Source: a bacterium (GTDB taxonomy: Bacteria > Patescibacteriota > 4484-211 > GCA-002791395). Taken from it: 50,873 bases of DNA. A program made the translations under genes and the position numbers. The notes under the pieces are model-generated. The model searched no databases, was not told where the DNA came from, and saw nothing but the letters and a program-made list of their open reading frames with translations. The stretch is from positions 1 to 50,873 of the forward strand of contig JALWZS010000030.1 of the NCBI GenBank assembly GCA_027002475.1. The letters run 5' to 3'. Every line of letters begins with the position of its first letter. Position 1 is the first letter of the stretch. Shown here in pieces: positions 7,032 to 42,979 of this stretch.

Positions 7032-7059
7032 TTGACAGGGTTGACTTCTTTGATATAAT
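7032..7059 (+). promoter_or_regulatory. near-perfect sigma-70 promoter of a candidate small RNA
   Basis: TTGACA (7032-7037), a 16-base spacer and TATAAT (7054-7059): both boxes match consensus. No start codon with a convincing reading frame follows, so the promoter appears to serve the RNA at 7066-7168. Confidence 0.75.
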
Positions 7060-7065
7060 CTATCT

Positions 7066-7168
7066 AGAACATTGAGATACGCCTAGTTCCCAGTGTTTGG
7101 CTTAGAAGGATTAAGTCTCTGACTAGATTCTTTTCTTGGCTGAGCACTTGGAACTGGGCGTATTTTTT
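7066..7168 (+). ncRNA. candidate small structured RNA (rod-like hairpin)
   Basis: Predicted transcript of about 103 bases between lon and the convergent kinase gene. The expected start is 7 bases after a consensus -10. The ends pair over 19 positions: 7077-7095 with 7145-7163, one wobble and one mismatch. The 3' arm runs straight into six Ts (7163-7168), so the outer stem doubles as an intrinsic terminator. Inside, AAGGATTAAGTC can pair loosely with GACTAGATTCTTTTC around a TCT loop, leaving internal loops near 7096-7101 and 7135-7143. A rod with a central bubble recalls 6S RNA, but the length is short for 6S and I see no diagnostic sequence. It lacks the SRP RNA apical motif. Identity unknown. 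Confidence 0.65.
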
Positions 7169-40807: not shown

Positions 40808-41524
40808 ATGCTTAAGAAATTAACCAATCTTCTAAAAAGTATTCCTACACCAAGCATATACTTTGTGTTTCCAGGACGAGAAAGGAAAAAGAAGAAGACA
40901 GTGAAAGATATCCGTGAAATCTACGTTCCACAAAAGCCTGCGCTGGTAGTCGATACCTCGGCCCTCATTGACGGGAGGTTAGCAGACATTGTTGCCACTG
41001 GGTTTATGTCAGGTACCTTTATTGTTCCTTCATACGTGGTTAACGAGCTGCAACAAGTAGCTGATTCTAAAAATCCTCAAAAACGAAAAAGGGGGCGAAG
41101 AGGGTTAGATGTTTTGAATGAGATAAAAAAATCGAAGTTTACCAAATTCAAAGTTATAAGAATGGGACTTAGTGCAAAAACTGTAGATGAAAGCTTAATC
41201 GTTTTAGCACGTAAGCTTAAAGGGCGTGTTATTACTACGGACTTTAACTTAAATAAAGTTGGTAAGATTGCTGGTGTTCCTATTCTTAATGTTAATGAGT
41301 TGGCCAATACAGTCAAAACCATCTATCTGCCTGGCGAGAAGTTTGAATTGCGTCTTTTGCAAGAAGGTAAAGAAAAGAAGCAGGCCGTTGGATATTTACC
41401 TGATGGAACAATGGTTGTTGTTAAGGGCGCATCTAACCTTATAGGCGAAGATGTGAAGGTTGTTGTCGAGCGCCTTTTGCAAACCAATGCAGGCAGAATG
41501 GTCTTTGCAAAGCTTGACTCTTGA
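40808..41524 (+). CDS. PIN-TRAM domain protein (YacL-like)
   Basis: A 238-residue protein. After a basic N-terminus, a PIN nuclease domain shows the acidic cluster: ALVVDTSALIDGR (Asp), YVVNELQQVAD (Glu), VDESLIVLA and VITTDFNLNKVG (Asp). A C-terminal TRAM domain follows (YLPGEKFELRLLQEGKEKKQAVGYLPDGTMVVV). This is the cytosolic part of YacL proteins, without the four N-terminal membrane helices they usually have. It is a predicted RNase. It sits next to radA as in many Gram-positive genomes. TACAAT upstream (about 40777) suggests its own promoter. Its stop codon overlaps the -35 of the next RNA promoter. Confidence 0.88.
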   Translation: MLKKLTNLLKSIPTPSIYFVFPGRERKKKKTVKDIREIYVPQKPALVVDTSALIDGRLADIVATGFMSGTFIVPSYVVNELQQVADSKNPQKRKRGRRGLDVLNEIKKSKFTKFKVIRMGLSAKTVDESLIVLARKLKGRVITTDFNLNKVGKIAGVPILNVNELANTVKTIYLPGEKFELRLLQEGKEKKQAVGYLPDGTMVVVKGASNLIGEDVKVVVERLLQTNAGRMVFAKLDS

Positions 41525-41549
41525 CAAGCAGTCCCAAAAATGCTATAAG
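41521..41549 (+). promoter_or_regulatory. promoter of candidate RNA upstream of rho
   Basis: TTGACA (41521-41526), 17 bases, TATAAG (41544-41549). The -35 overlaps the stop codon of the PIN-TRAM gene. The predicted start, 7 bases after the -10, is the first G of the closing helix of the RNA. Confidence 0.7.
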
Positions 41550-41555
41550 TATATC

Positions 41556-41623
41556 GCCAGGGTTGATTTTATGTGGAGGGGCAGTACACATAAAATCGCG
41601 TTAATTTTTATTGACGCCCTGGC
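41556..41623 (+). ncRNA. candidate structured RNA with three-way junction
   Basis: GCCAGGG (41556-41562) pairs perfectly with CCCTGGC (41617-41623), closing two hairpins. The first is a perfect 10-bp stem (41566-41575 with 41587-41596) capped by an 11-base loop, GAGGGGCAGTA. The second is a 7-bp stem (41599-41605 with 41610-41616, one G-U) with a TTTT loop. No reading frame fits. TCTACTTTATTT follows, a poor T tract. It does not match the purine, TPP, THF or hammerhead consensus that I know. It could be a small RNA or a regulatory leader, but rho has its own promoter downstream. Confidence 0.65.
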
Positions 41624-41664
41624 TCTACTTTATTTCAAAATATAATGTTTACGGATAATTTAAC

Positions 41665-41693
41665 TTGACAATAGTCACTGCACTTGTTAAAGT
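41665..41693 (+). promoter_or_regulatory. promoter of rho
   Basis: TTGACA (41665-41670), 17 bases, TAAAGT (41688-41693). It lies about 92 bases before the rho ATG, giving an unusually long leader for this window. Confidence 0.7.
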
Positions 41694-41695
41694 AT

Positions 41696-41745
41696 AAACA
41701 CTTTTCCTACTATTTCGGCTTAGACGTCGTTCTCGGAAAGTGTTT
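41696..41745 (+). promoter_or_regulatory. leader hairpin of rho
   Basis: AAACACTTTTCC (41696-41707) pairs with GGAAAGTGTTT (41735-41745), apart from one bulged or mismatched base, around a 27-base loop. There is no T tract, so it is not an intrinsic terminator. rho is autoregulated in other bacteria, so a leader role in control is plausible but unproven. Confidence 0.55.
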
Positions 41746-41785: not shown

Positions 41786-42979
41786 ATGGCTACTACAACA
41801 AATACAAATGATACGGTAACGCAGGCACAAGCTTCGGCTGAGCCAAAATCAGACTTTTCTCCTGAAGCAGAAACCAAAGAGGTTTCTGGAGTGTTGGAGA
41901 TACTTCAAGACTATGGTTTTTTGCGGACCGAAAACATGAAACCCGGTCCTGAGGATATTTATATCAGCATGAGCCAAATTCGTAAGTTCCGACTTCGAAA
42001 TGGTGACCAAATAAGTGGTTTAGCCCGTCCGCCCAAACAAGGTGAAAAATACTGGGGGCTTTTAAGGGTTGATAGTGTCTGGGGAGAAGATCCGGAGAAA
42101 ATGTACAATAGACCTTGGTTTGATAGATTAACGCCCATTTTCCCTGATGAGAGGTTAAAGCTTGAAACCAAGCCCGATATAATTTCAACAAGATTGCTTG
42201 ATTTAATTGCCCCTGTTGGGCGTGGACAAAGAGCAATGATTGTATCCCCGCCAAAAGCTGGAAAAACCACTTTCTTAAAAGAGATTGCTAATGGAATTAC
42301 GACTAATCATCCCGATGTTTCGCTTTTGGTTGTTTTGATAGGTGAGAGACCTGAAGAGGTTACTGATATGCGCCGCAGTGTTGAAGGGGAGGTTGTTGCG
42401 AGTAACTTTGACGAGAAACCAAGTGAGCAAGTGTCTGCATCTGCATTAGTCCTTGATATGGCGAAAAGGATGGTTGAGCTTGGTAAGGACGTTGTTATGC
42501 TTGTTGACTCAATAACTCGTCTGGCACGTGCTCACAACCTTAATGTTCCTCCTAGCGGAAGGACTCTTTCTGGTGGGTTTGATCCTGCAGCTTTATATCC
42601 ACCAAAACACTTCTTTGGTGCTGCTAGAAACATTGAAAACGGTGGCTCGTTAACGATTATTGCTACCGCACTTGTTGATACTGGTAGCAAGATGGACGAC
42701 CTCATTTACGAGGAATTTAAGGGGACTGGAAACATGGAAGTTCACTTGGACCGTAAACTAGCTGAAAGAAGGATTTATCCCGCAATAGACGTTACTCGCT
42801 CTGGCACTAGACATGAAGAGCTGTTAATTCCGCCAGCGGATTTGGAAAAAGTCGTTAAATTAAGGAGAATGCTTGATACTCTAGGAGAGGGTTCGCAAAC
42901 TACAGAATTGTTAATTGCTCGACTTCGCAAAACTAAAAGCAATAAAGACTTCTTAGCGACGATGCATGAAGTAAAATAA
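41786..42979 (+). CDS. rho: transcription termination factor Rho
   Basis: A hexameric RNA-dependent ATPase that ends transcription. The 397-residue protein has a polar N-terminus, the cold-shock-like RNA-binding domain (GVLEILQDYGFLRTENMKPGPEDIY), Walker A PPKAGKTTFLKE (about 153), Walker B VVMLVDSITRLARAHN, the Q/P-loop region SGRTLSGGFDPAALYPPKHFFG and the R-loop GTGNMEVHLDRKLAERRIYPAID. It is complete and without the large insertions seen in some CPR Rho proteins. No Shine-Dalgarno is obvious before the ATG. The M23 peptidase gene follows. Confidence 0.97.
   Translation: MATTTNTNDTVTQAQASAEPKSDFSPEAETKEVSGVLEILQDYGFLRTENMKPGPEDIYISMSQIRKFRLRNGDQISGLARPPKQGEKYWGLLRVDSVWGEDPEKMYNRPWFDRLTPIFPDERLKLETKPDIISTRLLDLIAPVGRGQRAMIVSPPKAGKTTFLKEIANGITTNHPDVSLLVVLIGERPEEVTDMRRSVEGEVVASNFDEKPSEQVSASALVLDMAKRMVELGKDVVMLVDSITRLARAHNLNVPPSGRTLSGGFDPAALYPPKHFFGAARNIENGGSLTIIATALVDTGSKMDDLIYEEFKGTGNMEVHLDRKLAERRIYPAIDVTRSGTRHEELLIPPADLEKVVKLRRMLDTLGEGSQTTELLIARLRKTKSNKDFLATMHEVK

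Follow-up and report, generated by a model that had tools for sequence, protein, structure and literature searches.

A hairpin RNA with a conserved GGGCAG loop is linked to rho in Patescibacteriota

RESULTS AND DISCUSSION

Organization of the rho locus

The window, the whole stretch of 50,873 nucleotides that was analyzed, comes from a 1.09-Mb genome (G000). A gene for a PIN-domain protein (40808 to 41524; PF01850) is followed on the forward strand by the gene for the transcription termination factor Rho (41786 to 42979, forward strand; TIGR00767, 574.8 bits against a cutoff of 509.45; PF07497), and the element described here sits in the 260 bases that separate the two. The element is likewise preceded by a PIN gene in G001, G002, G005, and G035; the G035 locus is cut by a contig end and has the PIN gene upstream, as expected.

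The 3' end of the PIN gene falls inside promoter P1 (41521 to 41549, forward strand), which is read directly as TTGACA (41521 to 41526), a spacer of 17 bases, and TATAAG (41544 to 41549). The automatic promoter scan did not list this site because it requires T as the last base of the -10 element. The promoter spacing predicts a transcription start at 41556 (41549 + 7), the first G of GCCAGGG. The original prediction had placed the start at the first base of the helix that closes a three-way junction, and its coordinates were exact, with the start a prediction from promoter spacing. It had also proposed a second promoter for rho, which the promoter scan located nearest to that gene (TTGACA-N17-TAAAGT, 41665 to 41693, forward strand; 10 of 12 matches).

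A three-way junction in one family

The short form of the element in the window is a 68-nt three-way junction (41556 to 41623, forward strand). Folded alone, the 68 nt reached -30.2 kcal/mol compared with -14.2 ± 2.8 kcal/mol for dinucleotide shuffles (z = -5.8), and none of 200 shuffles was as good. The closing P1 helix pairs GCCAGGG (41556 to 41562) with CCCTGGC (41617 to 41623) and has the 7 bp originally proposed. P2, which we refer to as motif C (41565 to 41597), is a hairpin of 11 bp rather than 10 bp; its strands are GATTTTATGTG (41565 to 41575) and CACATAAAATC (41587 to 41597), and its apical loop is GAGGGGCAGTA (41576 to 41586), with the core GGGGCAGU. Folding places P3, GCGTTAAT-TTTT-ATTGACGC, at 41598 to 41617; its strands (41598 to 41605 and 41610 to 41617) form 7 to 8 bp, with one C shared with the P1 helix.

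Three genomes of family f1 (the source of the window, G001, and G002) share this arrangement, and both same-family relatives keep a homologous junction. The P1 helix is GCCAGGG/CCCUGGC in the window, GCCAGAG/CUCUGGC in G001, and GUCAGAG/CUCUGAC in G002, with double compensatory changes at two of the seven pairs and none broken. The P2 stems are nearly all different among the three genomes, and the loop core GGGGCAGU is identical. A hairpin can be drawn at the position of P3 in both relatives; the P3 sequence is not conserved. The fold energy and the compensatory changes in relatives bear out the view that the structure is not random.

The U-rich tail that follows the junction, TCTACTTTATTTC (41624 to 41640, forward strand; read directly), is a possible weak termination site. 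The terminator scan of the window called no intrinsic terminator after the junction, and therefore read-through into rho is possible.

The junction is confined to f1, and the P1 helix and P3 are missing elsewhere. The closing helix is absent from families f2 (G003, G005, and G006), f10, and f30, in which just the promoter and the hairpin are left. The hairpin starts about 10 to 20 nt after the promoter in f1 and f2. Thus, the three-way junction and the fit between start site and helix, which had been regarded as the defining features, are restricted to f1, and it is the loop hairpin that is conserved instead.

Conservation of the loop hairpin across the phylum

The conserved core is an 11-bp hairpin with the loop NNGGGGCAGUR, of which the junction is a local version. 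An alignment of ten genomes from several families (A1) was the basis for R1, a covariance model of the hairpin. Eight of the nine P2 pairs in A1 covary with double changes, which supports the structure, and 95.6% of cells are paired, compared with 66.6% in shuffled alignments; the covariation score was reached by none of 500 shuffles. The core GGGGCAGU is invariant in the ten aligned sequences. The model matches the window at 41567 to 41595 with 33.1 bits.

A search of 379 genomes of the phylum with R1 gave a match in 51, one per genome, of which 45 were convincing, with at most one confident copy per genome. The matches in G066, G135, G139, G182, and G273 were not counted because they were weak, had the wrong loop, or were coding-like, and had no adjoining rho; the G023 match was left out of the count without inspection. 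A strong rho match was present in 98 of the 379 genomes, and all 45 genomes with a convincing hairpin were among the 98, a co-occurrence that is confounded by phylogeny. In 38 of the 45 genomes the hairpin lies immediately upstream of rho on the same strand, with one further locus cut by the contig end and six located elsewhere. The RNA family is far wider than could be seen from the single sequence on which the original prediction was based. The proposed grounds for refutation, lack of covariation or absence from relatives with a conserved rho neighborhood, were put to the test, and the prediction was not refuted.

A looser test for the loop covered 94 rho upstream regions, with permuted words as controls. 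On the sense strand, 62 of the 94 genomes, representing 23 of 34 families, had a GGGCAG-loop hairpin upstream of rho, and none had one on the antisense strand. Permuted control words were found in about 1.7 families on average, and the few high-scoring permutations (GGGGCA and GGCAGG) overlap the same loops. No GGGCAG-loop hairpin was found near rho in 11 of the 34 rho-bearing families. The core is GGGGCAGU in 57 of 69 hairpins, with variants such as GGGCAGG in others, and the conserved loop can be written as GGGGCAGU(G/A). The stems have turned over completely between families, and the 8-nt loop is unchanged. Fixed loop nucleotides with variable stems are expected of a protein-binding or base-pairing site. 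The preservation of the GGGGCAGU loop on freely changing stems is therefore a sign of a putative functional recognition site.

The wider bacterial search for rho returned mainly other phyla and served solely as a negative control. No true R1 match was found in 79 rho loci of other phyla or in 49 of those genomes. The one true match among the 80 control loci was in a DTUPAT1 record that has the contig coordinates of G210. A weak match in G390 had the wrong loop and was not counted.

Many families have a U-run directly after the hairpin, and several have none; G014, f20, f80, and others combine a perfect hairpin with a U-run. Two tandem GGGCAG-loop hairpins are present in G303 (locus L132), G080, and G232 (loci L210 and L193), which suggests a possible multivalent binding site in these genomes. 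The rho upstream regions of G177, G300, and G342 (L217, L223, and L233) contain another conserved terminator-like hairpin, ACUACCGCNGA...CGAAUAGCAAUG, which precedes the GGGCAG hairpin by about 200 nt.

Promoters and gene context

The counterpart of promoter P1 is TTGACA-N17-GCTATA in five relatives from f1 and f2, TTGACG-N18-TATAAC in an f3 genome, and TTGACA-N17 in f10 and f30. A promoter of the element's own, with a constant spacing of 16 to 18 bases, is predicted from sequence in at least 13 families. Nine families (f10, f20, f30, f80, f102, f110, f129, f147, and f149) have a TATRGG box directly before the -35 element, often repeated before the -10 element of the same promoters. This box is a probable binding site for some regulator. 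Between the hairpin and rho, 38 of 64 genomes have a promoter-like site (score of at least 9), compared with a shuffle expectation of 32%, and such sites are present in most families except f39.

The hairpin in f39 starts about 20 to 40 nt past the upstream stop codon, leaving no room for a promoter, and most f39 genomes have no promoter-like site between the hairpin and rho. This arrangement agrees better with a cis-acting element in the rho mRNA, and the f39 hairpin seems to lie inside the rho transcript.

Six genomes keep the RNA with its loop intact where rho is not adjoining (four of five genomes in f80 and both in f102). In f80 the RNA precedes rplJ-rplL; in G181 and G191, rho lies on the other strand at a distance of about 6 kb. 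The f102 copies are far from rho, and in G201 no codirectional gene follows the RNA, the next gene being convergent and ilvA-like. These copies, in two families, favor an independent small RNA, as had been suggested for the window, whereas the f39 arrangement points to a role in cis. In four f80 loci (L169, L171, L172, and L173), the rpl cluster is locally rearranged, with rho placed behind rplK-rplA. The joint loss of hairpin and rho in G007 was considered as a natural experiment and set aside as uninformative, the neighboring PIN gene being missing too.

Long forms and motif A

In nine families (f20, f61, f80, f102, f110, f119, f129, f147, and f149), a predicted transcript of about 120 to 300 nt has the hairpin at its 3' end. 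This predicted long form has its own promoter and one or two copies of a second hairpin, motif A, followed by motif C. Motif A has invariant CC/GG pairs and a tandem U.G/G.U step within a long variable stem, and 17 of its 24 pairs have compensatory changes. Because the short forms of f10 and f30 share the TATRGG promoter box with the long forms, both seem to be versions of one transcription unit.

The window also contains a standalone motif A small RNA gene (7032 to 7168, forward strand), placed between lon and a convergent histidine kinase gene on the opposite strand. It was identified with the covariance model of motif A (R2; 50.2 bits, E = 3.7e-11), which describes a covarying family present in 34 of the 379 genomes and without a match in Rfam. 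The gene consists of a perfect TTGACA-N16-TATAAT promoter (7032 to 7059; 12 of 12 matches), an 87-nt rod hairpin with an invariant GUYUGG/CUGRGC step (7077 to 7163; fold z = -8.7), and a terminator-type run of six U residues (7163 to 7168). Standalone motif A is also found in G001, G003, G005, and G007, and it lies near lon in the last three. Thus, as predicted from these arrangements, motif A and motif C are separate RNAs in the lineage of f1 and f2 and are fused elsewhere. Motif A was also evaluated by eye as an antiterminator of the motif C stem; the pairing was good in f80 alone and not in f20.

Comparison with known RNAs

The statement that the structure could not be matched to a known riboswitch or ribozyme agrees with the Rfam search, which found none. 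Rfam 15, at gathering and permissive thresholds, identified only rRNA, tRNA, and tmRNA in the window and its relatives, and matches within the element region were at chance level (E = 0.77 and 5.6). The strong consensus promoter and the rod-like motif A hairpin of the long form resemble 6S RNA, but no large central bubble is predicted here, and the conserved loop belongs to a separate hairpin at the 3' end. A divergent 6S RNA was rejected on the absence of RF00013 matches (none in 12 genomes at E ≤ 1, with the control positive in 6 of 14).

Sponge RNAs of the CsrB/RsmZ type, which end in a terminator, likewise have varying stems and a fixed loop, and some lineages here have tandem hairpins. 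However, there is usually a single loop in the RNA described here. RNAs that bind CsrA/RsmA have ANGGA in hairpin loops, whereas the loop here is NNGGGGCAGUR, and GGGGCAGU is not a CsrA GGA site. The structured RNA before rplJ in f80 recalls the ribosomal protein L10 leader, but this position is limited to four f80 genomes, and in other families the RNA stands ahead of rho or of other genes. The L10 leader model had no match in the window or in the scanned rho-side loci, a set that left out the f80 loci.

One report (PMC6582626) describes control of rho at the RNA level in the enterobacteria Escherichia coli and Salmonella, through premature termination in the rho leader (attenuation) and through a separate small RNA, SraL, that pairs with the leader. 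The RNA described here is likewise placed for RNA-level control immediately upstream of rho, and one proposed outcome, a Rho set point, is similar to that in PMC6582626. It differs in its structured hairpin, whose G-rich loop is invariant, in having a predicted promoter of its own and frequently a putative terminator, and in occurring also at sites distant from rho; homology was not seen. A search of the open-access literature found no description of this RNA. Neither Rfam nor the open literature searched contains the element, which therefore represents a new RNA family in a setting in which RNA control of rho is already known.

To our knowledge, hardly any work has been done on the regulatory RNAs of these bacteria, which have small genomes and are mostly uncultivated. 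An RNA that occurs in single copy, is conserved in some 20 families, has an invariant loop, and is tied to rho offers a concrete handle on how the level of Rho is set. Should its partner turn out to be Rho, this would be a regulatory RNA dedicated to binding Rho. Further parts that can be tested are the promoter box and the motif A module.

Proposed function and alternative explanations

The interpretation that we favor, with moderate confidence, is that the element is transcribed as a separate small RNA, docks a trans-acting partner through its loop, and keeps the expression or activity of Rho in balance. The RNA would be transcribed from its own sigma-70-type promoter (41521 to 41549), starting at about 41556, and the main job of the three-way junction would be to present the P2 loop, GGGGCAGU(G/A), to the partner. 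In many related families a U-run would end the RNA after the hairpin, before the second promoter that would make the rho mRNA. The loop is considered the thing recognized because it is invariant, the stems are free to change, and the lineage-specific scaffolds all present it. The partner is more likely to be a protein, possibly one tied to transcription termination, because no RNA partner was found in rRNA: complementarity of the loop to rRNA is negligible, with no ACTGCCCC in 16S, 23S, or 5S rRNA and a single ACTGCCC in 16S rRNA. The link with rho suggests control of the level or activity of Rho. The structure, its covariation, the invariance of the loop, the linkage to rho, and the presence of copies away from rho are established here; we infer transcription, termination, the partner, and the effect on Rho. 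Pairing of the loop with ACTGC in the spacer of the downstream promoter, which can be drawn in G000, G001, and G006, was rejected; it is not conserved in G002, G003, and G005.

A cis-acting rho leader is a possible but more tentative explanation. Transcripts from promoter P1, or in f39 those of the upstream gene, would carry the hairpin in the 5' leader of rho, where a factor that binds the loop, or Rho itself, would choose between premature termination and read-through into rho. The same-strand linkage to rho (in 38 of the 45 confident genomes and across 23 of 34 families), the terminator-like U-run in many families, the f39 hairpin in an apparent operon leader without its own promoter, and the autoregulation of E. 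coli rho by leader attenuation (as cited in PMC6582626) are all consistent with such a leader. However, an attenuator would be bypassed by the second promoter that follows the hairpin in most families other than f39, f80 and f102 keep the RNA and its intact loop away from rho, and a conserved antiterminator pairing was looked for and not found. One RNA may act both as a small RNA and as a cis attenuator.

It is also conceivable, but unlikely, that the loop hairpin is dedicated to binding Rho itself, exerting control in cis beside rho and titrating Rho in trans in f80 and f102. Among the 379 genomes sampled, none of the species without rho has the RNA, as judged from convincing R1 matches. Many members of the phylum seem to lack rho, given that 98 of the 379 have a strong match.

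The hairpin might instead serve simply as an intrinsic terminator for transcripts of the upstream gene or of promoter P1, with its loop conserved by descent only. The perfect hairpins with U-runs in G014, f20, f80, and others have the form expected of such a terminator. Yet descent would have had to leave 8 nt of loop invariant through complete turnover of the stems between families, when control loops were not conserved; the U-run is absent in several families, and the f1 and f2 hairpins follow a promoter within about 10 to 20 nt. We consider this explanation quite improbable. A chance structure in AT-rich intergenic DNA, or a small coding sequence in the 61-aa open frame that overlaps the element (41460 to 41645), can be dismissed almost entirely, because covariation across genomes refutes a chance structure already at odds with the fold z of -5.8, one-base indels between the f1 genomes leave no reading frame across the RNA, and copies occur in unrelated contexts. 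Even taken together, these uninteresting alternatives have little probability.

One further feature of the window lies between the element and rho. Transcripts from the second rho promoter also seem to start at the base of a stem (AAACACUUUUCC...GGAAAGUGUUU, 41694 to 41745), and an apparent weaker counterpart of this stem is present in G001.
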